From assembly GCA_927405585.1 (NCBI GenBank), contig CAKMJS010000101.1, positions 1 to 54,250 on the forward strand: a DNA stretch of 54,250 bases, written 5' to 3'. This DNA comes from an uncultured Desulfosporosinus sp. (lineage in GTDB: Bacteria; Bacillota; Desulfitobacteriia; Desulfitobacteriales; Desulfitobacteriaceae). The position numbers and the translations under genes were made by a program. This document shows positions 9,989 to 50,142 of this stretch, piece by piece. The notes below the pieces were generated by a model. That model saw only the letters and a list, made by a program, of their open reading frames with translations, was not told the DNA's origin and searched no databases. Position 1 is the first letter of the stretch. The number at the start of each line of letters is the position of its first letter.

Positions 9989-10000
9989 TACTTTTGTTCT

Positions 10001-15217: not shown

Positions 15218-15255
15218 AGTTCTCACCTCCTTTCGTTCAAGGGACTCTCCATGGT

Positions 15256-15507: not shown

Positions 15508-15539
15508 ATCTTCTCTCCTTTCGTTAACGATCTAAGGCA

Positions 15540-15706: not shown

Positions 15707-15739
15707 GACAAACCAAAATCAGGGAGGTTAGATACTACC

Positions 15740-16333: not shown

Positions 16334-16349
16334 CACGAGGAGTTGTCGT

Positions 16350-18092: not shown

Positions 18093-18136
18093 ATTATAAG
18101 CTAATTAAGGTGAGTTTGGCAAGAATGAACGAAAAG

Positions 18137-18174
18137 AACGCTGGATGCCACACAATAAAGGAAACTCCAGCGTT
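18137..18174. terminator. terminator at the end of unit A
   Basis: AACGCTGGA (18137-18145) and TCCAGCGTT (18166-18174) form a perfect 9-bp stem. T-rich tracts flank it on both strands (TCTTTTT on plus, CTTTTC on minus). It lies downstream of the GldA-like gene and upstream of pheB. Confidence 0.65.
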
Positions 18175-18361: not shown

Positions 18362-19450
18362 TTACGTTTCTAAAAATTTCCTGCCTTTTTTATCAATTGC
18401 ATACATTGCCTTTAAAGTCATCTCTTCATCTATCTTTATAGGCATAAAACCCATTGCCCTTGAATTGGTAGCAGCTCTTGCGGCCAATTTAATATCTTCC
18501 TCAGTTAATGTACCAATCTGCTTAAAGGTAATAGGAACATTAATAGAGTTAGCCAGCTTAATTGCCTGCGTAATCTCCTTTTCTGGACGTCCTTCCATTT
18601 CTATTAAACACAGATTTCCAAACCCAACCAATTCTCCATGATACATTTTATGGGCTTCCTTGATATTGGTCAAGCCTGAATAAACAGCATGGGCTGCCGC
18701 ACCTCTACATTTTTCTCCACCTAAAATGCTTGATATCCCAGCAAGCCAAATAATAGCCTCCACTACTTGTTCCAGGGCCTCACTAACTTCTTTTTTGTCC
18801 ACTGAGATTATTGCCTTACTACCGAACTCAGTTATTATTTCAAGGCATGCATGCCCCAAAGCTAGAGCACCCGTATTCAAGCTAGTTCTTGGAATAGCAC
18901 TGGCAATTGCCCGCAACTCATACCACTTTGCTAGCGTATCGCCCATTCCTGAACACAATAAACGACTAGGTGCTTTGGCAATTATATCTGTATCAACAAA
19001 AATCGCTGCTGGTAATGCTGACTCAGGAGAACTTATTAAATGAGACCCTTGAGGAGTATGAATTATCGATAATGGAGTAAAAGCTGCGCAAGTGCCTGCG
19101 ATCGTAGGCACTGTAACAATTGGAAGTTCACTTTTATATGCAGCAGCTTTCCCTGTGTCAAGTGACTTACCCCCACCTATGCTAACTATCAAATCTGCTT
19201 TTAACTCACTTACCTTTTGAGTGAGCTTATTTACATTATCCCATGTACATTCTTCCCCATACAATAATAAATCAACAATCTCTACCTGCGATCTGGCCAA
19301 TGAATCACTAATTTTTTGTTTAGTTACTTGCAGTGCTGTTTTGCCCCCAATTAAGACTGCCCGTTTGCCCAGCTTTCTACAAATATCGCCCAACTGGCTA
19401 ATCACATTGCTACTTTGGTAATACTCAGGTGGAACAAATAACTGACTCAT
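18362..19450 (-). CDS. GldA-like iron-containing alcohol dehydrogenase
   Basis: A 362-residue NAD-dependent dehydrogenase of the glycerol dehydrogenase branch. Visible are LIGGKTAL near residue 35, the NAD-binding SIGGGKSLDTGKAAAY (about 91-106), TVPTIAGTCAAFTPLSII, and metal-binding Asp/His candidates in CSGMGDTLAKW, GALALGHACLE and MYHGELVGFGNL. Length is normal. The substrate cannot be read from sequence; as last gene of unit A, it may oxidise a hydroxy acid or alcohol to the keto acid used by IorAB. ATG follows GAAGGAGTAATATGT. Confidence 0.85.
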   Translation of the reverse strand: MSQLFVPPEYYQSSNVISQLGDICRKLGKRAVLIGGKTALQVTKQKISDSLARSQVEIVDLLLYGEECTWDNVNKLTQKVSELKADLIVSIGGGKSLDTGKAAAYKSELPIVTVPTIAGTCAAFTPLSIIHTPQGSHLISSPESALPAAIFVDTDIIAKAPSRLLCSGMGDTLAKWYELRAIASAIPRTSLNTGALALGHACLEIITEFGSKAIISVDKKEVSEALEQVVEAIIWLAGISSILGGEKCRGAAAHAVYSGLTNIKEAHKMYHGELVGFGNLCLIEMEGRPEKEITQAIKLANSINVPITFKQIGTLTEEDIKLAARAATNSRAMGFMPIKIDEEMTLKAMYAIDKKGRKFLET

Positions 19451-19495
19451 ACATATTACTCCTTCAAATATATTTAGATTTTATAGCATAATTTT

Positions 19496-20800
19496 TCAAA
19501 ACAACAAGGAAGGCTTTACTAATAAGTTACCTTGTACATCGAAACCAATATCTTTTGCCTCGCCTAATACTTCTATGTCGCTCCTAGTCTTTATATCTTC
19601 TAAGGCAGATTCCGAGACAAGAATTCTATCTAATTCTAGAGTATTTTTTATTAAGACTATCTTGGCTTGAGAAATTGTAATCCGATTACACGTCCTTAAA
19701 GCAACTATAATTGCTTCCTTTTCAGTATTCATCACAATGGGTATTTTTGCAGCATTTAAAGATGTTGATGTAATTGCATTTGCATAGACATAGCTAAAGT
19801 TGATTTTATTTACCAATTTCCTTGTGGTTACATCAGCCAACCCTATTCCCAAGCCGTTCCCATTTGTTTTATCTGTTAAGTCTAACACAACTATTTTTTG
19901 GAAATTCGGGGCATCAAAACCTGCGGAATTCACGCCTCGCCTTCCCACAATATTGGGATCCATGCCTGCTCCGCTAATCTCTTTTCCAATTTCTTCTATT
20001 ACTAATACGTCAAAATTTCGCAGAATAATTCTTGGCATATACTCTTTTGCCTCTTGAAGCAATTCTGGTTCCCTGTCAATAATTCGGCTAGCTGAGACTA
20101 ATTCAATTCGAGCCGTTTCATCATAAGCATTTTCTAAAATAGCTACTCCAAATAAAACCTTCGTCTTTTCCAAAACTAGTTTGCCTACCTCTGGAATGAC
20201 TTGGTTAAACTCCTCAAAGCCTAAAGAATGGATATAGGACGCTCCTTTATGATTTCCCAATCCAATTGCTAGCATTTTCATTAATCCGCTTTCAATAGGA
20301 CCTTTAAAACTTGTATGTGGTTTAACCCGGTTGATTATCACAATTCCATCAGCCTGATAGGCTACTTTATCAAAGAAAACGGGTATATCTGTGATAGTTG
20401 TAGCAATTCTTACAGTGTCCATGGATGAAACTATCGGTACGCCTATTTGTTCTTCTGTAATTCCATATCTAGCCAGTACCTGAGCTTGCCCTTCTTGCGT
20501 TGCGCCACCATGGCTACCCATCGCAGGAATAATAAAAGGATTTGTTCCTGCCGCTTTAAGGTTTAATATTGTTTCTATTATAATTTCTTTTAAATTCGCT
20601 ATTCCACGGCTACCAACAGCAACTGCAATTTTCTGACCAGGTTTAATTAGCTGCTTTATTTCCTCCCTGCTAAATTCCAGCTTAATTGCTTCACTGATAT
20701 TTTTCACCTTCGTTGTTTTAAATTTCTGCCGCACATAAAATAACCTTGGTAGATCAATGTCATACCCACCATCAATCTTTACATCTATCGGTTCAAACAT
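19496..20800 (-). CDS. LarA-like (lactate racemase domain, DUF2088) protein
   Basis: A 434-residue protein of the nickel-pincer racemase family. Candidate cofactor and catalytic residues are conserved in order: Arg in VGSRGI, His97 in MGSHGGAT, His162 in KPHTSF, Lys175 in SGLMKMLAIG and His184 in GNHKGA. Spacing differs slightly from lactate racemase, so the substrate is probably another 2-hydroxy acid. LarA homologues need a cofactor made by LarB, LarC and LarE; these are not in the window. It lies between an SDR and a GldA-like dehydrogenase, suggesting stereo-inversion of the substrate before oxidation. ATG follows GGAGGAATATCA. Confidence 0.82.
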   Translation of the reverse strand: MFEPIDVKIDGGYDIDLPRLFYVRQKFKTTKVKNISEAIKLEFSREEIKQLIKPGQKIAVAVGSRGIANLKEIIIETILNLKAAGTNPFIIPAMGSHGGATQEGQAQVLARYGITEEQIGVPIVSSMDTVRIATTITDIPVFFDKVAYQADGIVIINRVKPHTSFKGPIESGLMKMLAIGLGNHKGASYIHSLGFEEFNQVIPEVGKLVLEKTKVLFGVAILENAYDETARIELVSASRIIDREPELLQEAKEYMPRIILRNFDVLVIEEIGKEISGAGMDPNIVGRRGVNSAGFDAPNFQKIVVLDLTDKTNGNGLGIGLADVTTRKLVNKINFSYVYANAITSTSLNAAKIPIVMNTEKEAIIVALRTCNRITISQAKIVLIKNTLELDRILVSESALEDIKTRSDIEVLGEAKDIGFDVQGNLLVKPSLLF

Positions 20801-20845
20801 TGATATTCCTCCACTTAGAATCTAATTAAAAATAGTATACAATAC

Positions 20846-21616
20846 CTATATGGTACTACCTCCATCTACTGAAAGGATATGACCCGTCACAAAATCACTG
20901 GCTTCAGAAGCAAGATATAAAGCTGCTCCTTTTAGAGCATTGTTATCTCCAATTTTTTTAAGGGGAATACTGAACGTGATTTTATCTAACCGATTTTCTA
21001 AAACGGCTTTTGTCATTTTAGTGGGGAAAATTCCAGGTGCTATTGCATTAACATAAATACCATGTCGAGCCCACTTCATAGCCAAATCTTTGGTGAAATG
21101 AATTACTGCCGCCTTACTTGTACTGTAACCTATCGCATTAAGCGCTTCAGCAGGTCTGGCTCTTATACCAGCGGCTGAGGCAATATTAATAATTTTGCCA
21201 TATTTATTCTGGATCATTGCTTTACCCACTTTTTGTGACATTAAAAAAGTTCCAGTTACATTAACATTCATAACCTTTTGCCAGGCTTCCAAGGGCATTT
21301 CCTCTACAGGTGCTCCCCAGGTAGCTCCGCTATTATTAACCAAAATATCTATTTTTCCAAATTCAGCCAATACTTGATCGACTACTTTTTCAACATTTGA
21401 CTTTTGAGTAACGTCACAAGCAAGCGCCATGGTCTTAATGTCATTTTTACTTAATTGTTGGGCCACTTCCTCGCAATTTTCCAGGTTGCGAGAACAGACA
21501 ACAATATTGCATCCAGCTTCAGCAAAAGCTTCAGCAATTTGTTGCCCAAGTCCTGCTCCTCCTCCAGTAATCAGTGCCACCTTACCCCTTAAGCTAAATA
21601 AGTCAAATACGTTCAT
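20846..21616 (-). CDS. short-chain dehydrogenase/reductase (SDR)
   Basis: A 256-residue classical SDR. NAD(P) motif TGGGAGLGQQIA (about 17-28), NNSGA, and the catalytic Ser/Tyr/Lys in INIASAAGIRAR and IGYSTSKAAV. CDVTQ near residue 65 fits cofactor binding of either type. It resembles gluconate 5-dehydrogenase-type enzymes, but specificity cannot be set. It could oxidise the hydroxy acid handled by the LarA-like protein downstream. ATG follows GGGAGGGAGAAA; 17 bp after iorB. Confidence 0.87.
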   Translation of the reverse strand: MNVFDLFSLRGKVALITGGGAGLGQQIAEAFAEAGCNIVVCSRNLENCEEVAQQLSKNDIKTMALACDVTQKSNVEKVVDQVLAEFGKIDILVNNSGATWGAPVEEMPLEAWQKVMNVNVTGTFLMSQKVGKAMIQNKYGKIINIASAAGIRARPAEALNAIGYSTSKAAVIHFTKDLAMKWARHGIYVNAIAPGIFPTKMTKAVLENRLDKITFSIPLKKIGDNNALKGAALYLASEASDFVTGHILSVDGGSTI

Positions 21617-21633
21617 TTTCTCCCTCCCGATAC

Positions 21634-22251
21634 TTACTTAATCCTTTGCACCACATTATTTAAGCCCAAAAAGAAAGCCTTTTCATTCATCTCGAGCAAT
21701 TTCTCACCAAAATGATTCTTAATAACTTTAAGAAAATGCTCCTGTTTTATTGGTACAAAGCCAGTTCCGGATAGAGCTCCTACCATAACCATGTTTGCCA
21801 CAACTGCTTTACCTACTTCTAAGGCTATGTCAGTGGCATTTATAGACACCATAATAGCAACGTGTTCTTTAATACCTTGAAGGATAGTATTTAAATTAGG
21901 ATACACTTGTTCGCCAGCTAATACTTTAATGGGGTAGACAGGACGAGTGTTAACTAATACTTTTGTCCTCGGATTTCCGTATACTCCTAGAATACGTAAA
22001 GTTTCCATGGGTTCAAAGCCAACAATAACATCTGCCATTCCTTTAGGTATTAGTGGTCCTAAACTATTCTTACTATTTAAACGAACATGACTCATAACCG
22101 AACCACCCCGTTGTGAAGCACCGAAAGTCTCTCCTACTGTAACTTCATAACCCGCCTCGACAGCCGCCAAAGCAATCAGTTGAGATGCCAGCACATTTCC
22201 CTGTCCGCCTACACCTGCTATAATTACGTTTAATTTATCAAACACCATCAT
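21634..22251 (-). CDS. iorB: indolepyruvate ferredoxin oxidoreductase beta subunit
   Basis: A 205-residue gamma-type domain of 2-oxoacid:ferredoxin oxidoreductases: VIIAGVGGQGNVLASQLIA, then GETFGASQRGGSVMSHVR are signature segments. It pairs with IorA to oxidise aryl or other 2-oxoacids to acyl-CoA, CO2 and reduced ferredoxin in the cytoplasm. The start ATG directly abuts the iorA stop (TGAATG). ATGATG gives two alternative starts three bases apart. Substrate could be aromatic, as in IorAB, or another keto acid. Confidence 0.92.
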   Translation of the reverse strand: MMVFDKLNVIIAGVGGQGNVLASQLIALAAVEAGYEVTVGETFGASQRGGSVMSHVRLNSKNSLGPLIPKGMADVIVGFEPMETLRILGVYGNPRTKVLVNTRPVYPIKVLAGEQVYPNLNTILQGIKEHVAIMVSINATDIALEVGKAVVANMVMVGALSGTGFVPIKQEHFLKVIKNHFGEKLLEMNEKAFFLGLNNVVQRIK

Positions 22252-24168
22252 TCAGCTCCCCTCTACCAATTTGATAGCATGAGTAGGACATAATGTGGCA
22301 CAAACACCACAACCAACACAAAGTGCCTGGTCAATCATCTTGCCTTGCTCTGGGGCATTAATATTAGCCGGGCAGTTAAATGCTCTGCTGCAGAGATCAC
22401 CACAACCACACTTACTGCCAAGACATAACGTTTGATCAATATACATCTTTTGATTTTTCCCAACCTTTGATTTTAATAAAACACACTCTTGCCTTAATAT
22501 TAAAACTTTAGGCCCAGGCTCAGGGAGTTTTGCTAAAATAACGTCGATTGTATCGTTTACGTCGTAGGGGTCGGCAATTGTATACGGTATTTCAATTCCT
22601 GAAATAATTTTTTCAATGCTCAAAGCAGGGGCATCAACCCCTCTGGCATCGATGACTGAACCGGAGTGTGGTTGATGACCAGTCATAGCTGTAGTAGAAT
22701 TATCCAATATTACACACAGGAATTTAGCACTGTTGTGTTTTGCATTAATAAGGGCAGGAATCACTGCATGGTAAAAGGTAGAATCCCCTACTACCGCTAT
22801 TACCGGTTGCTTAAAATCGAACCTTTGCATTGTTCCAAATCCATTAGCAAGACCTACACCAGAACCCATAGAATGAACGGTGCTCAACATATTGTAGCCT
22901 GTTGGCCCTCTGCCCATTGCATAGCAACCAATATCCCCAAGGACAAACCCATTATTACCATCAAGACTCAAGGCTGCTTTTATAGCCCAATAAGATGCAC
23001 GATGAGGACACCCTGCACAAAAGGCCCTGTCTCTTAAAGGTATGCTACCACAGACATGCTCAACACAGCTTGCCGTTGACCCTGAATAGTCTGGTCGTTT
23101 AATTCCTTTGATTTCTGCCAAAGTGTCTATTAAAATATCTGTGTTTAACTCGCCAATCCCAGCTCCCATCGGTCCTTTCACGTATTCATTACGCTTTCCA
23201 AAAAACTTAATTGGTCCGATTTCTGACCCGTGATAAGCTACTAAGCTAGTAATGCCTTCTTCAATAAAAGGGTCTGTTTCCTCAGCAAAAATAACTTCTT
23301 TTGTGCCTTTTAGATAGCCAAGTAAAGTTTTATCTGGTAAGGGCCAGCTCATTTTTAAGCGCAAGACTCCTATCTCATCTGTTAATCCGAGCTCAATTAA
23401 AGCTTCTTTTGCGTATAGAGCACAAGGACCAGTAGCAATAACAATACTTTCCGCATTCGCTGGGCCTGAGTACTCTATGGTATTATTATTTTCAGCCCAA
23501 AGGGCAGCTTTCTTAACTTTTTGCTCTAATTCGGGATGTGCTAGGGGTTGACATAAAAACTTTTCCTTTAATTCTGCTTTTACAGGCGCCTTAGCTTTTT
23601 CTATGTCACCTAGGGTTACCAATCCACTAGCATGGCAGATACGGGTTACACCTCTTAATACTACCGGTAAGCCTATGAATTCAGATAATTCAAAGGCTTT
23701 AATCGTCAAATCCTTAGCTTCTTGAATGTTCATAGGTTCCAGAATAGGTAATCGTGAAAGCTTAGCTAGATAACGGGAATCTTCCTCTTTGATACTAGAA
23801 TGAGCAGAAGGGTCATCACCAAGTACTACTACCATCCCCGCATTAATACCTGAATAGGCTAAGCTGGTAAAGAAGTCGATAGCTACGTTCAAACCATCCG
23901 GCTTCATAATAGTCATTGAACGTATTCCCGCAAAGGAAGCAGCTGCCGCCGCTTCACTAGCTACCTTTTCGTTGGTTGACCATTCAGCGTAAATGCCAAA
24001 CGGGTTTCCCACTTTGGCAAGTACATCTAGTACTTCTGCTGACGGTGAACCAGGGTAGGAGGTTGCATACTTCATTCCAGCTTCAATTGCCCCACGGGCT
24101 ATTGCTTCATTACCGGTGAGTAATACTTTCTTCCCCGGCTGCTCTATTTTTACACTATCGATGCTCAT
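22252..24168 (-). CDS. iorA: indolepyruvate ferredoxin oxidoreductase alpha subunit
   Basis: About 638 residues. I place the start at ATG 24166-24168 (MSIDSVKIEQ), nine bases after AAAGGGG and one base after the upstream stop; the longer frame overlaps that gene. N-terminal PFOR-type domain (GAIEAGMKYATSYPGSPSAE). The TPP-binding domain contains GDIGCYAMGRGP, HSMGSGVGLANG and VGDSTFYHAV. The C-terminal two-cluster ferredoxin domain has CLGSKCGCGDLC and CVGCGVCATLCP. It converts 2-oxoacid plus CoA to acyl-CoA. It is complete, with all cluster cysteines in place. Confidence 0.93.
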   Translation of the reverse strand: MSIDSVKIEQPGKKVLLTGNEAIARGAIEAGMKYATSYPGSPSAEVLDVLAKVGNPFGIYAEWSTNEKVASEAAAAASFAGIRSMTIMKPDGLNVAIDFFTSLAYSGINAGMVVVLGDDPSAHSSIKEEDSRYLAKLSRLPILEPMNIQEAKDLTIKAFELSEFIGLPVVLRGVTRICHASGLVTLGDIEKAKAPVKAELKEKFLCQPLAHPELEQKVKKAALWAENNNTIEYSGPANAESIVIATGPCALYAKEALIELGLTDEIGVLRLKMSWPLPDKTLLGYLKGTKEVIFAEETDPFIEEGITSLVAYHGSEIGPIKFFGKRNEYVKGPMGAGIGELNTDILIDTLAEIKGIKRPDYSGSTASCVEHVCGSIPLRDRAFCAGCPHRASYWAIKAALSLDGNNGFVLGDIGCYAMGRGPTGYNMLSTVHSMGSGVGLANGFGTMQRFDFKQPVIAVVGDSTFYHAVIPALINAKHNSAKFLCVILDNSTTAMTGHQPHSGSVIDARGVDAPALSIEKIISGIEIPYTIADPYDVNDTIDVILAKLPEPGPKVLILRQECVLLKSKVGKNQKMYIDQTLCLGSKCGCGDLCSRAFNCPANINAPEQGKMIDQALCVGCGVCATLCPTHAIKLVEGS

Positions 24169-24169
24169 C

Positions 24170-25252
24170 TTACATACCCCTTTCCACGGCTCTGTGGTAG
24201 CTTTCATTAAGCTTTAAATACGTCGGCTCCCACTCCTCCAGAACTCGTTTTTTCTTATTACCAACTGCCTGTAGTAATAGAGGAATCCGCTCTGCTGGAT
24301 ATGTATATACCTCGATGATACCGTCTTTGATAGACTGTTCTATCAGTTCCCGACCTTTATCCGTCCTGATAATTAAGGTATTCCAACCAGGATCAAATTC
24401 GGTAGAGCCTATCGACAAATCAGCAAATTCAGAAGTAGGGTCAAAGCACTGTTGACAAGTAGGACAAATAAAGCGCCGGATATTTTCCACCGGCAGTTTT
24501 AACTCTTCACCATTTGTTCTAACTACTAAGTCTTCAGTGGTAATATCAAGACTGGCAATATTGGCTCCTTTTGTTTTTTCAGCTAGGAACTCATAAAACT
24601 CCGGTGATAGAGCCCAAAAACAGAACAGACCGATTATCAACTTTATTTTATTTCCTGGTAAATCACTTGGATTATTATAACGAAGTTGCATTTTGCGTGC
24701 AGCCAGCACCTGGCACGGTCTTCCAACCACCCCAAGGTTTTTAAACCCTTCTTCAATTGCCTTGTTTAGGCTCAATAATGTTGGTACAGCTGAGTATTTT
24801 GAACCTGCAGCAGCTAGGACATCATCTCTAGTAGTCGCCAAGGTGGGTTCCGGCATTTTACCTGGCTCCCCTCCTGACAGTACCGCTCCGTCAATTTCCC
24901 CTATGCTTAAGGCATAGCTTACTAATGCTGAGGTTAGTCCACTGTATTGGCCTTTTTGAGAGAAATCAGATTCCTTTGCTCTGGCAAATAGTAATTGATT
25001 GTAGTTACCTAAAACATGATCCGTTCGCTGTTTTCCAAAGATCTCCTGATCCATCTGAGGCCAGTCAGTCTCTCCTCGGGGGCATATGTTATAGCATTTA
25101 CCATCGTCAACTTGACACTGGTGAATGAACGCAGTTTTCTCTTTAAAGCTTTTGATATATGGACAAAGCCCAATACACATGCCACAAGAAGTACATAGTT
25201 CAGTTTGAATAACCTCTTGCTGCAGTCTTTTTGAGGAAATAGTTATTTCCAT
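24170..25252 (-). CDS. FrhB-like iron-sulfur flavoprotein (F420 dehydrogenase beta-subunit family)
   Basis: A 360-residue protein. The N terminus has a 4Fe-4S motif (CTSCGMCIGLCPY) and further cysteines (CQVDDGKCYNICPRG). QYSGLTSALVSYAL and VGRPCQVLAARKM are typical of the FrhB/FdhB family. RRFICPTCQQCFDPTSEFAD, then ADLSIGSTEF is the C-terminal cluster site. Members bind FAD and pass electrons between iron-sulfur proteins and F420 or other carriers. With iorAB directly downstream, it probably takes electrons from ferredoxin; F420 use in this organism is not implied. ATG follows GAGGAGTTGATTTA. Confidence 0.85.
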   Translation of the reverse strand: MEITISSKRLQQEVIQTELCTSCGMCIGLCPYIKSFKEKTAFIHQCQVDDGKCYNICPRGETDWPQMDQEIFGKQRTDHVLGNYNQLLFARAKESDFSQKGQYSGLTSALVSYALSIGEIDGAVLSGGEPGKMPEPTLATTRDDVLAAAGSKYSAVPTLLSLNKAIEEGFKNLGVVGRPCQVLAARKMQLRYNNPSDLPGNKIKLIIGLFCFWALSPEFYEFLAEKTKGANIASLDITTEDLVVRTNGEELKLPVENIRRFICPTCQQCFDPTSEFADLSIGSTEFDPGWNTLIIRTDKGRELIEQSIKDGIIEVYTYPAERIPLLLQAVGNKKKRVLEEWEPTYLKLNESYHRAVERGM

Positions 25253-25319
25253 TAAATCAACTCCTCATTATACTCATCCACAATATTGAGCGGTCTAACT
25301 CTCCCCTTGGGCTAAATTT

Positions 25320-25354
25320 ATATCCAGGATGTTTTTCGATAGCATCCTGGATAT
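25320..25354. repeat. perfect 12-bp inverted repeat in the permease-frhB gap
   Basis: ATATCCAGGATG (25320-25331) and CATCCTGGATAT (25343-25354). There is no T-run, so it is not a simple terminator. It may be an RNA processing or stability hairpin in the unit A transcript. A protein-like minus-strand frame (DIQDAIEKHPGYKFSPRGEL) runs through it without a start, so it may be a gene scrap instead. No other supported feature lies in 25253-25485. Confidence 0.5.
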
Positions 25355-25485
25355 CAGCTTTTGGAAAGCCATTGATACAGGCATATTTACTTCCGTTATC
25401 CCAACGACAACAAGATTTACTGCGTTAAGTGTCTTGCTAGTATAGTTGAACTATCACTAACTAGTGCTAATTAGAGCAATACGAT

Positions 25486-27588
25486 TTAGTTTCCTGACGT
25501 ATTAAGAGGTAAATCATAGTTCGCCTTAGACTTCTGGTTACGCCACTGAATAAATAGCACTAATGCCAGTAACGAAACACCTATTATATCTGTCACTAAT
25601 CCCTGATCAACCAATGCCAAAGCTGACACCAACAGCATAGCCCTTTGCCAAATAGGTGTTGCCGATATTAAGTATCCCTGGATGAAGCCAGCAAAAGCTG
25701 TTAAACCTATTATAGAAGTGATCGTGGCAAGGATAATGTCTGGTACGCTACCTTGTAACATCAGTGCTGGAGTATACACCATAATAAAAGGTAATATAAA
25801 TCCTGCTAATCCAAGCCGCATGGACTCTATTGATGTTTTAAATGGGTTAGCTCCGGCTATCCCCGCCGTAATGTACGAGGTTATGGCTACCGGGGGTGTA
25901 ATTCCAGAGAATATTCCAAAATAAAATACAAAGAAGTGAGCTGTTATAACCGGTACCTCTAGTTTTATTAATGAACCCACTGCTACTGTTGCCAGGATAA
26001 CATAGGCAGAAACTGTGGGCATGCCCATGCCTAATATTATTGATGCGAGCATAATCAGTAATAACATCGGCAGGAGTTCACCGCCGGACAAATCAATGGC
26101 CATCCGAGAAAAACGTATTCCTAATCCTGTCATAATTACTGATCCGGTAATGATCCCTGCCCCCGCACAAGCCATGACTGTTCCAATGGAACTTCGCACT
26201 CCATCCTCGAGTGCTGCAAGAGTTACCATGAAGCTCATTCTTGTTGCTTTTTTCAGCAAACTTATAAAATAAACCGCAATAATAGCCCAAAGACCTGCCA
26301 TCATTGGGCTATAGCCTACGACCATAAAGCCAACGATAACTAGCAAGGGTAGTAGTAAATAGCCTCGCTTCTTCATAACATCCCTAAAGACTGGCAATTG
26401 TTCCTTAGGCAGACCTTGTAACCCTAGTTTTCGAGCCTCCAGGTAGATTACAACAGCCGCTACCAAAAAATAGAGTGTAGCAGGTATTAGGGCATATCCC
26501 GCAATTTTGATAAACGGAATACCTGTATATTCGGCCATAATAAAGGCTGCTGCTCCCATGATAGGCGGCATTATCTGCCCCCCCTGGGAGGCCACTGCTT
26601 CTACTGCTCCGGCAAATTCCCTCTTGTAGCCAACTTTTTTCATTAGAGGTATGGTAAAGGATCCAGTCATGGTGGCATTAGCTGCACCGTTGCCAGTAAT
26701 AGTAGCCATCAAAGCGCTGGACAAAACTGCTGCCAGTGCAGGTCCACCTCGGGCTCTTCCGGTTAAAGCAAAGGCTAACTCGATGAATAAATGCCCAGCT
26801 CCTGTTTTTAACAACAAAGAACAGAATATCAAAAAGAGAATCAGCACTGTGGATGCGATGTATATCGGAGCGGTAAAAATCCCATTAGTGGTAATAAACA
26901 TAGTATCAATGCTTTTTGCGTAGCTAAACCCCGGGTGCGCTAATAGCCCGGGAAAGTACGGACCAACAAAAATATACGCCCAAAAAATAACAACCATAAT
27001 TGCCATAGAAGCTCCAACAGTTCTTCGGACGCCTTCGATGATGAGAAGAATCATGATTGTACCTACGACCATATCACTTGTTGAAGGATCCCCCTGTCTT
27101 AAAGATACTTCAGGGAAAGCAGTAAGGGAAAAAACCATGACTCCCAGCGAAAGTATCAGGGGAACAAAATCAAACAGCCAATGCAATTTATTCCTATTCT
27201 TCTTACTATACGGAACATAGCTATAGCATAAAACTAATACCGCCGATGTAAAAAAAGCTCTATGCTGCCAGGAAGGTAGTCCTCCAAAGGCAGCTGATTT
27301 GATTACATAAAGCGCTAATCCAATAGCTAAAAGAGAAACCAACATTCTTCCAATTCTGACAATAGTGGTCACTTGATCAGGGTTATAAATAGCTTTTTCA
27401 AAGTTGCAAACTGGGTACTCCGTTTCTAGTACCAAATTAAGCTTTTCTATTTTGTCTTCTTGTTTTTTGTCTTCGGTTGCCAATATATTCACCGCCCGCA
27501 AAAGATTGTAAGCGTCAAATAACGCCCTCCTATTAACTGCTCCAAAATCATGAGACAATACTCCGAAGTCAATCCCCGATTCGTGCAT
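25486..27588 (-). CDS. TRAP transporter fused permease (4TM/12TM, TAXI type)
   Basis: A 700-residue integral membrane protein combining the small DctQ-like and large DctM-like TRAP subunits. A soluble N-terminal segment of about 75 residues leads to four helices, then the large subunit with many hydrophobic helices. Landmarks are VVGTIMILLIIEGVRRTVG, GNGAANATMTGSFTIPLMKK, GGQIMPPIMGAAAFIMAEY, GMGMPTVSAYVILA and FSGITPPVAITSYITAGIAG, all typical of fused TAXI permeases. It drives uptake of carboxylates with an ion gradient, using the binding protein encoded upstream. The start region has only a weak ribosome binding site. Confidence 0.92.
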   Translation of the reverse strand: MHESGIDFGVLSHDFGAVNRRALFDAYNLLRAVNILATEDKKQEDKIEKLNLVLETEYPVCNFEKAIYNPDQVTTIVRIGRMLVSLLAIGLALYVIKSAAFGGLPSWQHRAFFTSAVLVLCYSYVPYSKKNRNKLHWLFDFVPLILSLGVMVFSLTAFPEVSLRQGDPSTSDMVVGTIMILLIIEGVRRTVGASMAIMVVIFWAYIFVGPYFPGLLAHPGFSYAKSIDTMFITTNGIFTAPIYIASTVLILFLIFCSLLLKTGAGHLFIELAFALTGRARGGPALAAVLSSALMATITGNGAANATMTGSFTIPLMKKVGYKREFAGAVEAVASQGGQIMPPIMGAAAFIMAEYTGIPFIKIAGYALIPATLYFLVAAVVIYLEARKLGLQGLPKEQLPVFRDVMKKRGYLLLPLLVIVGFMVVGYSPMMAGLWAIIAVYFISLLKKATRMSFMVTLAALEDGVRSSIGTVMACAGAGIITGSVIMTGLGIRFSRMAIDLSGGELLPMLLLIMLASIILGMGMPTVSAYVILATVAVGSLIKLEVPVITAHFFVFYFGIFSGITPPVAITSYITAGIAGANPFKTSIESMRLGLAGFILPFIMVYTPALMLQGSVPDIILATITSIIGLTAFAGFIQGYLISATPIWQRAMLLVSALALVDQGLVTDIIGVSLLALVLFIQWRNQKSKANYDLPLNTSGN

Positions 27589-27611
27589 TGTACCATCAAA
27601 ACGATGATGTC

Positions 27612-27643
27612 ATCGCCCTCACCTAATTCAAGGTGGGGGCGAT
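27612..27643 (-). promoter_or_regulatory. intercistronic hairpin between binding protein and permease
   Basis: ATCGCCCTCACCT (27612-27624) and AGGTGGGGGCGAT (27631-27643) form a 13-bp stem with one G.T pair and a 6-nt loop. No T-run follows on the minus strand. Such hairpins commonly protect the upstream message, giving more binding protein than permease; that role is inferred. Confidence 0.6.
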
Positions 27644-27694
27644 TTGACGCTTACAAAAGATTGCTCCTTGACTGATACTTTTTTGCTAATAAAA

Positions 27695-28738
27695 TTATTT
27701 TGCTAAGCCAACTTCTTTGTAGTAACGTAAAGCACCGGGATGGAAATGTGTTGGATCGGTAATTCCGGTATAGCCAATTCCCTTGTCCATCATAGCCCCG
27801 CGAGCAGGTTGCTCTTTCTTAATTCTGTCAAAATTTTCCCATATCGCTTTTGTCATTTGATATACTGTTTCCTCATCCATGTTTTTGTTAACGACATTGA
27901 TACTCATAGTTACAATTGTTGGAACAGCTTCAGTCTGTTTCTTGTATGTTCCTTTAGGATGGGGCACATTAGTTGTATATCCATAGCCTTTCTCATCAAT
28001 TTTCTTTAGCACATCAAGTGGTATCGGTAGCAGCCTGATTGGATTCGATGCATCAACTTCCGCAAGGCCTGGTACACTTGGTGAGCCACCTTGAGTTACC
28101 ATGTCGATAATGCCGTCTTTAAGTTGGTTAGCTGCATCTGCATAACCGCCGTAAGCAATTTTTACTCCATTCTTTTTAAGCTCTGCTTCTCCGTAGCCCA
28201 TAGCTTCTAGCACTCTTCGAGTTGCCAGCTCACTGGCATCGCCTGGGTTACCCGGAATAGCATATCCTCCCTTCTTGACAAAATCTTCTAAGCTTTTGAT
28301 AGGACTTTTATCCAAAACGGCAAATTGCCACCATGTCGGATATAGGGCAGTCATAGCTAAAACATTTTCCTGCTTGTTTCCCGCAAAAACTCCTTTACCA
28401 TTTATAGCATCTGATAAATCCGAGGCAAAAGCAAAACCTGATTGGGCATCCTTCCCTTTATTAACCTCTTTAATATTCCCGATGGCGCCACCTTCAACCA
28501 CCGTTATGTTCATGCCAGGAATGTCATCCATCCAAATGTCTGAAAACAATACTGACATCGGGTACCAGCCAGACGCTGTAGGACCACTAATATGAGAATG
28601 CATTGTAGTAGTAGGTTTAGTAGGTTTAGTCGGTTCTCCACCACCTGCAACGGTACTACTTTTACCACACCCACTTACCACTAATGCTAAAGCTGTAAAT
28701 AGAATCACTATAATCATAATACTTTTATTATTCTTCAA
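27695..28738 (-). CDS. TAXI-family TRAP solute-binding lipoprotein
   Basis: About 347 residues. The TTG at 28736-28738 is chosen: GGGGG lies eight bases upstream and it places a basic KNNKS directly before the hydrophobic signal core, ending at the lipobox VVSGC. The longer frame from 28786 would put 16 extra charged residues before the signal. The mature protein begins with a Thr/Pro linker, then HSHISGPTASGWYPMSVLFS, GGAIGNIKEVNKGKDAQSGF and YAIPGNPGDASELATRRVLE, features of TAXI binding proteins. It captures a carboxylate outside the membrane and delivers it to the permease encoded next. Confidence 0.9.
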   Translation of the reverse strand: MKNNKSIMIIVILFTALALVVSGCGKSSTVAGGGEPTKPTKPTTTMHSHISGPTASGWYPMSVLFSDIWMDDIPGMNITVVEGGAIGNIKEVNKGKDAQSGFAFASDLSDAINGKGVFAGNKQENVLAMTALYPTWWQFAVLDKSPIKSLEDFVKKGGYAIPGNPGDASELATRRVLEAMGYGEAELKKNGVKIAYGGYADAANQLKDGIIDMVTQGGSPSVPGLAEVDASNPIRLLPIPLDVLKKIDEKGYGYTTNVPHPKGTYKKQTEAVPTIVTMSINVVNKNMDEETVYQMTKAIWENFDRIKKEQPARGAMMDKGIGYTGITDPTHFHPGALRYYKEVGLAK

Positions 28739-28789
28739 CTTTTCTTCCCCCTTTTCATTTGTAGTCTCTCCAACACTTAAGTTCATATA

Positions 28790-28923: not shown

Positions 28924-28940
28924 TGCAATTATTATACCAA
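28924..28940 (-). promoter_or_regulatory. sigma-54 promoter of unit A
   Basis: Minus strand TTGGTATAATAATTGCA: GG (-24) and GC (-12) separated by exactly ten bases, TTGCA intact; the -24 box TTGGTAT departs from TTGGCAC at two positions. It would drive the small leader ORF, TRAP genes and probably through to the GldA-like gene. Confidence 0.75.
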
Positions 28941-29262: not shown

Positions 29263-31407
29263 CTACTTAGTTTTTTTTATTATTATAGAATCAACTACTT
29301 TAACGCCTTGACCTGTAGGTAAAACTAATAACGGATTAATATCTAGTTCTGCTATGTTATCCTTAAAATCACCAGCCAATTGCCCTACCTTAAACAGAGT
29401 ATCCACTATAGCATTGATGTCCATTTTTTCTCTACCCCGAGCACCTACCAATAATGGATAAGCTTTTATTTCTTTTACCATTTCATAAGCACCTTCTTTA
29501 GTTAACGGAAGAACACGACGGGAAACGTCCTTTAATATTTCCACAAAAATTCCTCCTAAGCCAAAAAGGATTACCGGCCCAAATTGAGGATCATTATTTA
29601 TTCCAATAATTACTTCCTGACCACCAGTAATCATTTCTTGTACTAATACTCCATTTATCCAAGCATTAGAATTGTAGTTGTTGGCATTGTTCATTATCTC
29701 ATTGAAAGCACTTATTATTTCATCATCTGACTTTAAGTTTAATCTTATAGCTTTGGCTTCTGATTTATGCAGAATGTCAGGTGATTCAATTTTTAAACAA
29801 ACAGGTCCTCCAATTTTCCGAGCAATAGATACTGCTTCTTCAGCATTTTTTGCTATTTCTTCTTTTGTAACACTAATGCCATATTGCTTTAATACCCGCT
29901 TAGCAGTGTACTCACCTATAGTCTGAGGAGCTTGCTCCAAAATTTCGAGTACTAAATTCAAATCAATAGGTTGGTCATTTATCAAAGGCTCCTTATGCTT
30001 GCTGTCTAGAAAATCCTGATATCTCTTCATAGCAGCTAAAACTCGACAAGCCTTACTAGGCACTTGATAACATGGGACTTTTCGCTCTGCCAAGATTTGT
30101 TTTCCGTTGTCGCCAAATCTAGCACCACTACTCCAAATAACCATTACGGGCTTATCGGTACTATCCGCCACATCAGCAATATCGTTTGCCATTTGTTCTG
30201 CCAAGCTTCCTGTTGCCGTCGATAACATTACTACTACCATGTGGATTTCAGGATCTTTCAGCAAGATGTTTATACACCTCTTAAACATTGTGGTATCATT
30301 TAAGATTTGCCCTGTTACATCAACAGGATTCATCGATGAGCCAAAGGCAGGAATAATCTCCTCAAGTTGACTCCTTGTTTCAGGTTTAAGCTCAGGAACA
30401 CTTAAGCCGTACTCCTCAGCCTTATCCGCCATCAGAATACCAGCCCCTCCGGAGGCAGTAACGATAGCTAATCCACTTCCCTTAGGATATTTTTTAGAAC
30501 GGAAGCCTACTGCGTAATCAACAAGTTCATCTATATCTTGAGCCTCAATAATTCCTGTCTGCCTAAATACCGTATTATAGATAGCGCTAGAGCCAGTTAG
30601 AGCAGCAGTATGAGACATAGCAGCCTTTTGCCCTACCTGGCTTTTCCCTACTTTAAGTATTATGATAGGCTTACTATTTTCCCGCGCCTTACTTCCGATG
30701 TTATAAATCCTATTAGCATCACGAAATCCTTCGACATAACCTAGAATCATTTCTGTCTCTGGATCCTGTACTAAAAATTCCAGATAATCCTCTGTTGTTA
30801 AGCCTGCTTCGTTACCAGAACTGATTATAAAATTGAAGCCAATTCCTGCTTCACTAGCAATGGTAACCATGGCGTGCCCTAAGGCACCGCTTTGAGAAAC
30901 TAAAGCTACATTTCCTTCGGCAAAGGAGTGATTTTCAAAAATCGGACTAAAAGTGGTAATAGCTTTTAGTGGAAGATTAACCATCCCTATACAGTTGGGA
31001 CCACATACCAGCATCCCCGTACGCTCAATAAAATCTTTTAGCTGTTTTTGATATACTGCTCCTGTTTCGTCGCTCACCTCCGCAAAACCAGACGTAACTA
31101 TGATACAGCTTTTGACTTCTTTCTCAGCGCATTCTTCTAAAATTGCAAACAACCTATCAATTGATACTGCAATTAAAGCCGTATCAACTGCTTCAGGTAC
31201 ATCTTTAATTGATGGATAGCATTTTAAACCTTGAATTTCTTCATACCGGGGATTAACAGGGTAAATCCCACCTTTGAATTCCCGTCTAAGGTATTTTAAA
31301 GGACGACCACTCACAGAAAATTCATTGTTTGATGCACCTATAATAGCAACACTTCTCGGTCGAGCTATAGGACTTAAGTCTTTAATATCAGCTGACTTAC
31401 TAGTCAT
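29263..31407 (-). CDS. ADP-forming acyl-CoA synthetase (acetate-CoA ligase family, fused)
   Basis: About 714 residues. ATG 31405-31407 (MTSKSADIKD) is preferred because AGGAGAT lies upstream; the longer frame lacks this. The CoA-binding domain opens PRSVAIIGASNN; ligase domains include VSQSGALGHAMV and the phosphohistidine loop AAMSHTAALTGS. The C-terminal ATP-grasp domain is complete: KIESPDILHKSEAKAIRLNL, GLGGIFVEILKDVSRRVLPL, ELDINPLLVLP. It converts acyl-CoA, ADP and phosphate to the acid, CoA and ATP, or the reverse. It is the last gene of the beta-oxidation unit, probably recovering ATP from its products. Confidence 0.92.
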   Translation of the reverse strand: MTSKSADIKDLSPIARPRSVAIIGASNNEFSVSGRPLKYLRREFKGGIYPVNPRYEEIQGLKCYPSIKDVPEAVDTALIAVSIDRLFAILEECAEKEVKSCIIVTSGFAEVSDETGAVYQKQLKDFIERTGMLVCGPNCIGMVNLPLKAITTFSPIFENHSFAEGNVALVSQSGALGHAMVTIASEAGIGFNFIISSGNEAGLTTEDYLEFLVQDPETEMILGYVEGFRDANRIYNIGSKARENSKPIIILKVGKSQVGQKAAMSHTAALTGSSAIYNTVFRQTGIIEAQDIDELVDYAVGFRSKKYPKGSGLAIVTASGGAGILMADKAEEYGLSVPELKPETRSQLEEIIPAFGSSMNPVDVTGQILNDTTMFKRCINILLKDPEIHMVVVMLSTATGSLAEQMANDIADVADSTDKPVMVIWSSGARFGDNGKQILAERKVPCYQVPSKACRVLAAMKRYQDFLDSKHKEPLINDQPIDLNLVLEILEQAPQTIGEYTAKRVLKQYGISVTKEEIAKNAEEAVSIARKIGGPVCLKIESPDILHKSEAKAIRLNLKSDDEIISAFNEIMNNANNYNSNAWINGVLVQEMITGGQEVIIGINNDPQFGPVILFGLGGIFVEILKDVSRRVLPLTKEGAYEMVKEIKAYPLLVGARGREKMDINAIVDTLFKVGQLAGDFKDNIAELDINPLLVLPTGQGVKVVDSIIIKKTK

Positions 31408-31494
31408 TAAATTTATCTCCTCCGTTCTCATAAACCAATTCATCCTCTAACCATAAGCACAAGTAATTTTTCAAATCCAATCTGTATATTATTT

Positions 31495-32316
31495 TTAATA
31501 CCTCCCGCGTAAGCTAAGCATCTCTCGGGCTTCATCTGGGCTTGCAACCGGTCGTCCAAATTCTTTAGCTAACCTGACTACTCTCTTGACTAATTGGGCA
31601 TTAGATTTTGCCAACTCTCCTCTAGCATAATAAATATTGTCTTCTAAGCCAGTTCTCACATGTCCTCCCATGGCTAAACCTACCATGTTCATTGCCAGTT
31701 GACCTCTACCAACGCCAATAACAGACCAGGTGCTTTCTTTGGGGATTATCTCCAGCATATGCACTATCCACTTTGCTTCTGCAGTTAGCCCTCCTTTTAC
31801 CCCTAAAACAAACTGAAAGTGTAGTGGTGGTTCAAGCAGGCCTCCTTCCAACAAACGAATAGTATTATAAATCATCCCTATATCAAAAACTTCAATTTCA
31901 GGTTTTACATTATAGTCCAGACACTTGCGAGCAAGCTTTGCAAGGAAATCTGGCGAGTTAGGGAAAATACTATCACCGAAATTCATAGTCCCTGCATCCA
32001 GCGAAACCATTTCAGGTTGCAGTTCTATTGGTCCAAGTCGTTCTTCCTCGCTCAAATCACTACCACTGGTAGTAAGACAAACGACTAGGTTAGTCTTAGC
32101 CTTTATATTTTCGTATATTTCCCGGTAAACATTTATGTCTCCAGTTTGTACGCCCGTATTATCTCGAGCATGAATATGTACAACTGCAGCTCCAGCTTCC
32201 CAGGCCTCTACTGCAGCAGTTATTATTTCTCTAGGCTTAATTGGGATATATGGTGTTTGTTCTTGGCTAATCCGTCCACCGGTTAAAGCCGCAGTTATAA
32301 TGACTTTATCTGACAT
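31495..32316 (-). CDS. beta-keto acid cleavage enzyme (BKACE, DUF849)
   Basis: A 273-residue TIM-barrel zinc enzyme. The N terminus VIITAALTGG, the metal motif VVHIHARDNTG (about 45-55), MVSLDAGTMNFGD and EIEVFDIGMI, and VIGVGRGQLAMN are family features. BKACEs react a beta-keto acid with acetyl-CoA to give acetoacetate and a new acyl-CoA; the founding member is Kce of lysine fermentation. The exact keto acid is not evident. Context between a transporter and an acyl-CoA synthetase in a beta-oxidation operon suggests handling of a keto acid intermediate. ATG follows AAAGGAGGAAGTAAGAA. Confidence 0.9.
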   Translation of the reverse strand: MSDKVIITAALTGGRISQEQTPYIPIKPREIITAAVEAWEAGAAVVHIHARDNTGVQTGDINVYREIYENIKAKTNLVVCLTTSGSDLSEEERLGPIELQPEMVSLDAGTMNFGDSIFPNSPDFLAKLARKCLDYNVKPEIEVFDIGMIYNTIRLLEGGLLEPPLHFQFVLGVKGGLTAEAKWIVHMLEIIPKESTWSVIGVGRGQLAMNMVGLAMGGHVRTGLEDNIYYARGELAKSNAQLVKRVVRLAKEFGRPVASPDEAREMLSLRGRY

Positions 32317-32358: not shown

Positions 32359-33792
32359 CTAATATTTAAAAAATATTGCCATTAATCCCCAAATTATTGG
32401 AAACATTAGCGTTGCATAAAGCCAATTATTTTTTATTCCCACTTCAAAAGGAGTTTTGTTCAGAAAGATACCTACTACTAAGTTAAGAGCGGCAAACGGT
32501 GCTAACACAATACCTAATGCCCAACCTATTATTAATCCCAAGGCTAGAAATAGTGGATCCCATATAACAGAAAACATCTGCAAGCTGGCTACAAAAAGAG
32601 TAATTGTAATAATGGGGCTAATTCCTATTACAAATAGAATTGCAATAGCCAAAGAAATCACCATCATGGTAATAAATGAGTCATAGGCTACCAATTTTTC
32701 AAGTGCTGCTACCATGTAAAGTCCAACTTCAGAGTAACTTAAAGCTGAGCTCAATAGCCCGATACTGGTGAATAACACGATTTCATTATGATGCTTTGGC
32801 AATTCGACTTGATAATACATTCTAAATATTGTAGGTAACACAGTAATTTTCTTTAAGAAAATCAGCCAAACAAGAGGAAAACTAATGGCAACAGTAGGTA
32901 CTAGTACTAGAATGCTAATACCATATAATGTATTTAATAAGATAGTTGTAATCAGTACTAAAAAACCTATCAACAATAATTCCCATATTTTTTTATAATT
33001 TACTTCTTCGTACTGCGTTTGGGAATCTTCAAGATCCATCTTGGTTTCCATTACTTCCGGAAAATCTTTTCTCCTTTTATCTATAACGTCTATGATCAAC
33101 CCTAAGACTAGAATAGCTAAACTTATAGTGAATCCATAAGGAAACATTTCTATCCAGCGGACTCCCGTCATGCTTAATACAAGTCCTACTGAAAAAAAAG
33201 TAGGTGACCAAAATATACAAGCAGTAAAACCTCTATGGGCAGCTAATAAAATCAGTTCCTTACGTTCCTTGCTACCGTTTTGACAAAAAAGCTGATAAAT
33301 GATGTGCATAGTGGCCAGATTAAACACTGCTCCCATTAGAAAAGAAATGATCATACTAAAACAATAAACCTGGTAGTTTTTCTTAACTTTTATTATGAAT
33401 AATCTCTCTACTGAGGATAGGTAATTCCCATAGATAAGAGGCATGCTCAAAAATGGCACTGTTAAGAAAAGACTTACTAAGTCAATGTTTTTTGCTATAC
33501 CCTCTCCCCAATGCTGTAATTCACTACCCGAATAAACAAGTATAAGTACAGATAAACTTATTAAACAATAGCCTAATATTCTAGAGGATCCTGTAGCCTT
33601 TGGTAAGCTAAGTATCAAAACAATAGCCATAACAATTATAGTAACCGTCATGAGTTTGTCTAAAGTCAGATACGTAGCTACCAAAAATAGTAAGGGTAAA
33701 ACTGCACATAAACTTGTTCTAATATGGTGAATCACAGAATTATTTGCTCGGGTTCCAATTTCTAAATTAACACCTGCTGATTGAGGTTTCAC
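32359..33792 (-). CDS. polytopic membrane transporter, ion-transporter-like
   Basis: A 477-residue protein with about 12 hydrophobic helices and a charged central loop near residues 240-270 (KRRKDFPEVMETKMDLEDSQ). Two loosely similar halves and the stretch VIGISPIITITLFVASLQMF resemble members of the ion-transporter (citrate/dicarboxylate) superfamily, but I do not recognise a named family. GTG start with a weak upstream site. Encoded between a thiolase and the BKACE, it may carry the fatty or keto acid degraded by this unit. Confidence 0.65.
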   Translation of the reverse strand: MKPQSAGVNLEIGTRANNSVIHHIRTSLCAVLPLLFLVATYLTLDKLMTVTIIVMAIVLILSLPKATGSSRILGYCLISLSVLILVYSGSELQHWGEGIAKNIDLVSLFLTVPFLSMPLIYGNYLSSVERLFIIKVKKNYQVYCFSMIISFLMGAVFNLATMHIIYQLFCQNGSKERKELILLAAHRGFTACIFWSPTFFSVGLVLSMTGVRWIEMFPYGFTISLAILVLGLIIDVIDKRRKDFPEVMETKMDLEDSQTQYEEVNYKKIWELLLIGFLVLITTILLNTLYGISILVLVPTVAISFPLVWLIFLKKITVLPTIFRMYYQVELPKHHNEIVLFTSIGLLSSALSYSEVGLYMVAALEKLVAYDSFITMMVISLAIAILFVIGISPIITITLFVASLQMFSVIWDPLFLALGLIIGWALGIVLAPFAALNLVVGIFLNKTPFEVGIKNNWLYATLMFPIIWGLMAIFFKY

Positions 33793-33891: not shown

Positions 33892-35082
33892 TTAGAGGCA
33901 TTCTATCATGATCGCCATTCCCTGACCGCCGCCTACACATAATGTTGCTATTCCGAACTGTTCTTTGCGTCGGAGCATTTCGTAAAGAAGGGTAATTGTT
34001 ATTCTAGCTCCGGTAGCACCTAATGGATGACCAAGAGCAATAGCACCACCGTTTACATTGACTTTATTAACATCAAGACCGCATTCTCTAATAACAGCTA
34101 GTGCTTGAGATGCAAAGGCTTCATTGAGCTCTATCAACCCGATATCTGATATTTGTTTACCAGTTCTTTTCAATAGTTTTTGAATGGCTGGAACTGGGCC
34201 AACCCCCATTATTTCAGGAGAAACACCCGCTTGCGACCAATCCACTATTCGAGCTAGGGGTTTAAGTCCTAATAACTTAGCTTTGTCTGCAGACATAATT
34301 AACATTGCTGCAGCACCGTCATTCCTTCCACAAGCATTTCCTGCCGTAACTGTACCAGTCTCTTTAAAGGCTGGACGTAGTTTTGCAAGAGCTTCGATTG
34401 TAGTGTTTGGTCTAGGGAATTCATCAGTTTCAAAAAGAACTGTTTGCTTCTTTTGCTTTATTTCTACAGGGATTATTTCATCTTTAAATTTGCCATCAAG
34501 TATGGCTTTATGGGCTCTCTTTTGGCTTTCTAGAGCAAAGGCATCCTGGTCTTCTCTGTTAATATTGTACCTGGAAGCTACATTTTCAGCCGTGATCCCC
34601 ATACCCAGGTGAGCACCAAAGATTTCAGTAGGCTGCTGGGCATTTTCAAGATTAGAATCCACCAAGACCGGATTTCCTTCACCAAAACGAGCACTACGCA
34701 GATAAATGGGGGCTCTGCTCATATTTTCAACGCCACCAACTATTGCTACCTCAGCTTGATTAAATACAATCTGCTGTACTCCTGAAGCAATTGCCTGCAT
34801 AGCAGAAGCACATAGTCGGTTAACTGTATAGGCCGGTGTAGTATCAGGAATACCTGCCCTAAGAGCTGCTACTCTGGCCACGTTTGAGGACTCTGAGGTC
34901 TGTCTTACTTCCCCCATAATTACGTCCTCCACTAGATCAGCAGAAATCCCAGCTCTGTTAATTACTTCTTTCATAACAAGACTAGCAAGAACACCAGCAG
35001 GAATATCTTTAAGTGATCCTCCTGAGCGACCAATTGGTGTACGAGCCGCACTGACAATTACAACATCTCTATTTGTTACCAT
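33892..35082 (-). CDS. acetyl-CoA acetyltransferase (thiolase) 1
   Basis: A 396-residue thiolase. N terminus [18 protein letters not shown], nucleophilic Cys in [14 protein letters not shown] (about 88-92), active-site His in [17 protein letters not shown] (about 350) and the second Cys in [11 protein letters not shown]. All catalytic residues are present, so it can cleave or condense beta-ketoacyl-CoA. Two thiolases in a row suggest different chain lengths or opposite directions. ATG follows GGAGAGAAATTT. Confidence 0.93.
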
Positions 35083-35123
35083 AAATTTCTCTCCTTCTAC
35101 TTTTGAAGTAAGTTTTTGGGTTA

Positions 35124-36290: not shown

Positions 36291-36330
36291 TTTATCCACT
36301 TCCTTTCTCGCACATTATGTCATAATTTAA

Positions 36331-37212: not shown

Positions 37213-37243
37213 TTTTAATCAATCCTCTCTCTATCTTTATAAA

Positions 37244-39079: not shown

Positions 39080-39116
39080 TTTCTCTCCCCCTAGTCAGTT
39101 CATAGAAAGTTCATAT

Positions 39117-40657: not shown

Positions 40658-40691
40658 GCAATAACCTCTCTCTTTTATTAAATTTTATATA

Positions 40692-41564: not shown

Positions 41565-41581
41565 TGCAATAATTATGCCAA
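41565..41581 (-). promoter_or_regulatory. sigma-54 promoter of unit B
   Basis: Minus strand TTGGCATAATTATTGCA, one mismatch from the -24/-12 consensus TTGGCAC-N5-TTGCA, with ten bases between GG and GC. It precedes the whole beta-oxidation operon. The remaining 41582-41873 has no gene; it holds AT-rich sequence suited to DNA bending. Confidence 0.85.
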
Positions 41582-43972: not shown

Positions 43973-44072
43973 ATCATCGCCCCTCACTACCATGTTTTGT
44001 GGATAGATTATACTTCCGTATTCTATCACTGAGGGGATTTATCCTTCATTCTTAGAAAATTGCAAAATTAAA

Positions 44073-46710: not shown

Positions 46711-46727
46711 TGCAATAACTATGCCAG
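46711..46727 (-). promoter_or_regulatory. sigma-54 promoter of unit C
   Basis: Minus strand CTGGCATAGTTATTGCA, with GG and GC ten bases apart. It stands about 75 bp upstream of the synthetase-like gene, so the activator may be in its own regulon. Confidence 0.83.
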
Positions 46728-50125: not shown

Positions 50126-50142
50126 TGCAAAGTTTGTGCCAA
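50126..50142 (-). promoter_or_regulatory. sigma-54 promoter of unit D (consensus match)
   Basis: Minus strand TTGGCACAAACTTTGCA, an exact match to TTGGCAC-N5-TTGCA, 74 bp upstream of the small dehydratase subunit start. It is the best of the four sigma-54 sites in the window. Confidence 0.92.

Follow-up and report, generated by a model that had tools for sequence, protein, structure and literature searches.

We analysed a window of 54,250 nucleotides from an uncultured Desulfosporosinus sp. (contig CAKMJS010000101.1, positions 1 to 54,250 of the forward strand; all coordinates follow the window numbering), in which eight intact open reading frames lie on the minus strand from 28786 down to 18362. 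With a probability of about 0.5, this eight-gene cassette serves uptake and 2-oxoacid oxidation within a larger catabolic island (about 18-50 kb) under sigma-54 control, carried by a DsrA-bearing anaerobe, and its substrate would be sugar-acid-like. In the proposed route, a TAXI-type tripartite ATP-independent periplasmic (TRAP) transporter would import a hydroxylated carboxylate, and a LarA homologue of nickel-pincer nucleotide (NPN) isomerase group 22 (LarA22) would invert the C2 hydroxyl with its NPN cofactor. The 2-oxo acid would be made by a GldA-like dehydrogenase and/or a short-chain dehydrogenase/reductase (SDR), both of NAD(P) type, or by an IlvD-type dehydration encoded upstream. An FrhB-IorAB enzyme would remove one carbon from it by oxidative decarboxylation and form an acyl-CoA, and the FrhB flavoprotein would carry the electrons to ferredoxin or take part in their transfer. 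The acyl-CoA would then enter an ADP-forming CoA ligase (ACD), giving ATP, and/or a hydratase, a 3-hydroxyacyl-CoA dehydrogenase (HBD), a thiolase and a beta-keto acid cleavage enzyme (BKACE). The initial annotation, which was made from the letters alone, had proposed import, isomerisation, oxidation and acyl-CoA formation for these genes. Comparison with related gene sets elsewhere lends this general mechanism moderate support, but not the boundaries of the cassette or the aryl-lactate that had been suggested as its substrate.

The eight same-direction genes are real, and profile searches confirmed the family given to each. They encode a TAXI-family TRAP solute-binding lipoprotein (27695..28786; TIGR02122), a TRAP fused permease (25486..27588; TIGR02123), an FrhB-like Fe-S flavoprotein (24170..25252; PF04432, PF04422), an IorA-like subunit (22252..24168; TIGR03336), an IorB-like subunit (21634..22251; TIGR03334), an SDR of the gluconate 5-dehydrogenase subfamily PRK08213 (20846..21616; NF006070), LarA22 (19496..20800; NF052515) and a GldA-like iron-type (Fe/Zn) dehydrogenase (18362..19450; PF00465). 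The first gene starts at 28786, not at 28738 as annotated before. The longest frame for IorA starts at 24207, but all five aligned relatives start at the equivalent of its M14, and the real start is probably 24168, one base past the FrhB stop. The gaps among the enzyme genes are small as described (about 1, 0, 17, 45 and 45 bp), while 106 bp separate the binding protein from the permease and 233 bp the permease from FrhB. A terminator-like hairpin follows GldA (18130..18173, minus strand; z -3.6). All eight genes are present, but to call the set complete was generous, since a CoA ligase, beta-oxidation genes and a regulator lie outside it. Rather than a unit complete in itself, it seems to be one sigma-54 operon out of four in a larger catabolic island. 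The gene set is more than a chance assembly: subsets of it recur linked in distant genomes, and a sigma-54 promoter stands at its head.

The FrhB-IorAB enzyme belongs to a distinct clade of 2-oxoacid:ferredoxin oxidoreductases (OFORs). The two Ior subunits contain PF01855, PF02775, PF00037 and PF01558, and their thiamine pyrophosphate and Fe-S motifs are intact in the alignment. Their best profile family is indolepyruvate oxidoreductase (IOR), with which they share the subunit architecture, these motifs and the expected conversion of a 2-oxo acid to an acyl-CoA. However, IorA scored 527 bits against the TIGR03336 cut-off of 651, and IorB 185 against 206 for TIGR03334. The window enzyme further differs from IorAB by its separate clade and by a stable FrhB partner gene directly upstream. 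The FrhB-like protein, a putative third subunit or partner of the oxidoreductase, passed the Pfam FrhB_N and FrhB_C models, but reached only 159 bits against a cut-off of 331 for the F420-reducing hydrogenase beta subunit (TIGR03289). A scan of the genome contigs with FrhB alone as the query gave one poor match. With an FrhB profile, nine copies were found in a comparison sample of 398 genomes evenly drawn from the phylum, two of them in the present genome. A search with an IorA profile led to the same nine places, which scored 968-1296 bits (one partial copy 626), all other IorA proteins scoring 543 or less, and FrhB lies directly upstream of IorA in nine of nine copies. In the tree, the window IorA first groups with that of genome G159, and those of G113, G154 and G189 join next; the second copy of the present genome falls into a separate, GlcD/GlcF-linked group. 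This second copy (L053/L149, G000 contig 47) lies with GlcD, GlcF, beta-oxidation genes and branched-chain-type ABC transporter genes, and also with a 4-hydroxybutyryl-CoA-dehydratase-like (HpaB-family) gene.

When other genomes were searched for the same gene set, subsets of it were found linked, but its two modules occurred apart. In G113, G159, G154 and G189, which represent two other families, FrhB-IorAB lies in large clusters with TAXI-TRAP genes. The linked SDRs of these clusters are 45-47% identical to the window SDR, and the clusters also encode an ACD (54-66%), a thiolase (60-63%) and an HBD (54-56%). Linked orthologues of the binding protein occur in G113 and G159 (45-48%), and those of the permease in G113, G159 and G189 (53-69%). 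A homologue of the enoyl-CoA hydratase ECH2 is likewise found in loci linked to FrhB-IorAB. The nearest relatives of LarA22, in G127 (65%) and G165 (61%), each lie with the nearest GldA relative (60% and 58%, respectively), in loci with IlvD dehydratases and DctPQM-type TRAP genes; that of G127 also has a KDPG-type aldolase and larB-larC. GldA homologues above 45% numbered four in the sample. Three of them are within 6 kb of a LarA22 gene, and the fourth, on a 4.7-kb contig, has the same neighbours as in G165. Judged from these homologues, the cassette is a union of a putative TAXI-TRAP/FrhB-IorAB/SDR module with a LarA22-GldA module, which are found separately elsewhere.

Other members of group 22 join OFORs in different ways. 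A group 22 LarA and an IlvD dehydratase lie directly 3' of FrhB-IorAB in G154 and G189, followed by a 4-hydroxybutyryl-CoA-dehydratase-like (HpaB-family) gene. Another LarA22 clade, found in G189 and G159, occurs with an SDR, GlcD, GlcF, a DapA-like gene, an ACD and a conventional IorAB. Further LarA22 loci contain a KorAB-type OFOR (L058/L059/L120/L129), and two or more other independent clades of LarA22 (L074/L076; L085/L087) have operons in which it is joined by an OFOR and either a 2-hydroxyacid dehydrogenase or a dehydratase. The LarA22-GlcDF-KorAB-SucCD operons of L058, L059 and L120 resemble the cassette in that a single operon encodes an epimerase, a 2-hydroxyacid dehydrogenase, an OFOR and a CoA ligase; however, KorAB and SucCD replace FrhB-IorAB and ACD there, and no TAXI-TRAP gene was seen in the stretch examined. 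In the tree, the OFOR-linked LarA22 proteins form separate clades, and thus the coupling arose repeatedly. We infer, by judgement rather than from a computed test, that this linkage exceeds chance, and it is the main support for the chemistry proposed earlier.

LarA22 scored 553 bits against the NF052515 cut-off of 400. Its R65, H97, H162, K175 and H191 are invariant in 23 homologues and map by spacing, rather than by structure alignment, to LarA Arg75, His108, His174, Lys184 and His200 (spacings of 65, 13 and 16, close to the 66, 10 and 16 of LarA; LarA numbering from PMC11770544). It shares with GntE1/GntE2, Plr and Hgr the NPN-type N-terminal domain with catalytic and cofactor residues (PMC7583248, PMC11770544), but the loop residues differ from those of Plr and LarA, and group 22 has no tested member in these two superfamily papers. 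The loop after the catalytic His162 is Thr-Ser/Asp, polar and not hydrophobic. The gluconate epimerase GntE2 has a small polar loop at this site, and LarA has Phe-Phe (PMC7583248); the loop of LarA22 is thus closer to that of GntE2. The phmmer search of LarA22 against the PDB gave no match, a profile search gave chance matches only, plus a weak one to DUF2088, and a single-sequence AlphaFold model (pLDDT 31) was not usable. GldA has the metal-ligand motifs (D in GMGD, H in AHA and HGE), and scored 287 bits against the glycerol dehydrogenase cut-off of 336 (PRK09423). The SDR, with TGGGAGLG and YSTSK motifs, scored 362 bits against the gluconate 5-dehydrogenase-type cut-off of 279 (NF006070). 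Another group 22 LarA is encoded in the same genome (L056, G000 contig 107), in a TctCBA-LarA22-IlvD-UxaA-DapA-like operon of sugar-acid type, which is kept in several species of the genus.

These features bear on the aryl-lactate pathway, in which phenyl-, hydroxyphenyl- or indole-lactate would be imported, racemised and oxidised to an arylpyruvate that IorAB converts to arylacetyl-CoA. The IOR profile family of the oxidoreductase suits this explanation, and the importer may do so too. The binding protein (173 bits against 84 for TIGR02122; PDB relatives include 8s4j and 1us4) adjoins the fused permease (620 against 321 bits for TIGR02123), as expected for a TAXI-TRAP system. VcGluP and TtGluBP share this binding-protein fold by sequence and the fused permease, but their two key glutamate-binding positions are not conserved here (alignment with PMC11574862). 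By our reading of the alignment, the positions of VcGluP Tyr45 and Gln93 are Trp and Phe, so that an aromatic or hydrophobic ligand is conceivable. Nevertheless, the aryl-lactate pathway is quite improbable. The IorA clade is separate and below the curated IOR cut-offs, and EdcC of the estrogen 4,5-seco pathway is an IOR-family enzyme that acts on a non-aryl 2-oxo acid and supplies a pathway of beta-oxidation type, albeit in aerobic steroid breakdown and with no FrhB, LarA or TRAP reported in the passage concerned (PMC12507874). LarA22 reached only 21 bits against the cut-off of 540 for the LarAH10 model of phenyllactate and hydrophobic hydroxyacid racemases (NF052525). Its polar loop and the sugar-acid operons around the nearest LarA22 and GldA relatives also disagree with an aryl substrate, the genes near the cassette handle beta-oxidisable acyl-CoAs, and the examined proteins of the window included no product of phenylacetyl-CoA or benzoyl-CoA genes. 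A polyhydroxy or 2,3-dihydroxy acid of sugar-acid type would be the more likely substrate.

The preferred reading, that of a sigma-54-controlled island with a sugar-acid-like substrate, is also supported by the promoters. The strict sigma-54 motif (TGGYAYN5TTGCW) has five matches in the window, where a Markov model predicts 0.4, and four of them precede operon starts by 65-153 bp on the minus strand. The match TGGTATAATAATTGCA (28924..28939), a -24/-12 promoter, is 153 bp upstream of the TAXI gene, and the other three precede the beta-oxidation operon (41565..41580), the ACD2-nitroreductase-activator genes (46711..46726) and the SAF-UxaA-IlvD genes (50126..50141). Similar matches precede FrhB or TAXI genes in L050, L052, L077 and L144. 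A CBS-PAS-sigma54 activator of the bacterial enhancer-binding type (41930..44029, minus strand; PF00158, PF00989, PF00571, PF02954) is the likely regulator, and the four operons may be under the common control of this single activator. No shared upstream activating sequence was found above control in the four promoter regions, and TTGTCC/GGACAA within 163 bp of three of the four sites was not significant.

The minus-strand genes between these promoters include ACD1 (29263..31443), an ADP-forming acyl-CoA synthetase of the neighbouring operon that is probably in the same pathway, BKACE (31495..32316; PF05853) and a polytopic putative permease (32359..33792); the FrhB-IorAB locus of G159 has a BKACE of 76% identity and a permease homologue of 53%. 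The permease has no Pfam or NCBIfam match, and a DUF401 label considered for it was dropped. The beta-oxidation-type operon (33892..41471) contains two thiolases, an HBD, an acyl-CoA dehydrogenase, two enoyl-CoA hydratases and an SDR. The IlvD-type dihydroxy-acid dehydratase (46888..48561) is 61% identical to the LarA22-GldA-linked IlvD of G032 and 50% to the LarA22-FrhB-IorAB-linked IlvD of G154/G189, and it need not be biosynthetic since the genome has two further IlvD homologues. The SAF/UxaA-like pair gave only weak matches to galactarate-dehydratase models, and SuyAB (sulfolactate lyase) was rejected as its identity.

These neighbours would also suit a 2,3-dihydroxy or 2-hydroxy branched or straight aliphatic acid (dihydroxyisovalerate type, or an alpha-hydroxy fatty acid) that gives a plain aliphatic acyl-CoA for beta-oxidation. 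Acyl-CoA dehydrogenase, enoyl-CoA hydratase, HBD and thiolase genes are close by, in G154/G189 an IlvD orthologue above the TIGR00110 cut-off accompanies LarA22-FrhB-IorAB, and 2,3-dihydroxyisovalerate is among the acids that LarA homologues can racemise (PMC11770544). We consider this explanation unlikely, because GldA and UxaA neighbours suit polyols and sugar acids better and no methylcrotonyl- or propionyl-CoA carboxylase was seen in the cluster. Another possibility, though an unlikely one, is a ferredoxin-linked non-phosphorylative sugar-acid pathway. LarA22 would epimerise an aldonate-like acid, an IlvD/UxaA-type dehydration would give a 2-keto-3-deoxy acid, and the three-part FrhB-IorAB, instead of an aldolase, would form a hydroxyacyl-CoA to be finished by HBD, thiolase/BKACE and ACD. 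OFORs are in principle reversible, and FrhB-IorAB could conversely carboxylate the acyl-CoA of an imported acid reductively to a 2-oxo acid. Such a biosynthetic use is highly improbable in a context of catabolic CoA enzymes, dehydratases, dehydrogenases and a sigma-54 regulator of substrate type.

Several observations weigh against the sugar-acid island as a single pathway. Neither LarA22 nor GldA occurs in the FrhB loci of G113 and G159, and IorAB is absent from the GldA-LarA22 operons of G127, G165 and G032, so that each module may have a substrate of its own. The 233-bp gap between the permease and FrhB holds a strong hairpin without a T-run (25309..25349, minus strand; z -3.8 for a 101-nt stretch), which could split the transport genes from the enzyme genes. 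The genome has other sigma-54 activators (e.g., L149, L056). It carries larE, larB and larC1, but LarC2 was not found in it, leaving NPN synthesis not fully accounted for. The sugar-acid neighbours may also mirror the substrates of the relatives rather than that of the window. It is accordingly conceivable, though we think it doubtful, that the TAXI-TRAP/FrhB-IorAB/SDR genes serve the acyl-CoA island, that LarA22-GldA and the UxaA/IlvD operon serve an unrelated sugar acid, and that their co-transcription is incidental. LarA22 subclades were recruited separately to FrhB-IorAB loci, which would fit such a juxtaposition. Against it, LarA22 came to lie in FrhB-IorAB or IorAB loci on several independent occasions (L074/L076, L085/L087 and the window), which suggests a functional link, and the genes are 17-45 bp apart in one operon.

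Some features of the genome and the window stand beside this argument. The genome carries dsrA, and the host is probably sulfate-reducing. The LarC gene of L136 (1510-2286, G000 contig 54) encodes LarC1 alone and has a rhomboid-like gene after it, in a genome with two group 22 LarA proteins. At 50281-50706 (minus strand), a 2-dehydropantoate 2-reductase (PanE/ApbA_C) is represented by its C-terminal part alone, likely a remnant. Prophage-like genes at 4119-16820 (integrase fragment, endolysin, anti-repressor, replication initiation, exonuclease, repressor and metallo-protease) adjoin the catabolic island and a tRNA-Pro at 17438-17514.

A literature search for gene sets of LarA, IorAB and TRAP, or of FrhB and IorAB, found nothing relevant, in agreement with the initial annotation, to which the combination was not known as a described operon. 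The parts are known and ordinary, and their combination is undescribed as a pathway. If the proposed reading is true, LarA group 22 would have its first assigned function, and so would the FrhB-associated clade of 2-oxoacid oxidoreductases, which is hitherto undescribed. The substrate of the island would become directly testable with a small panel of acids, and the pathway would show anaerobes coupling the isomerisation of hydroxy acids to ferredoxin reduction and substrate-level ATP formation.

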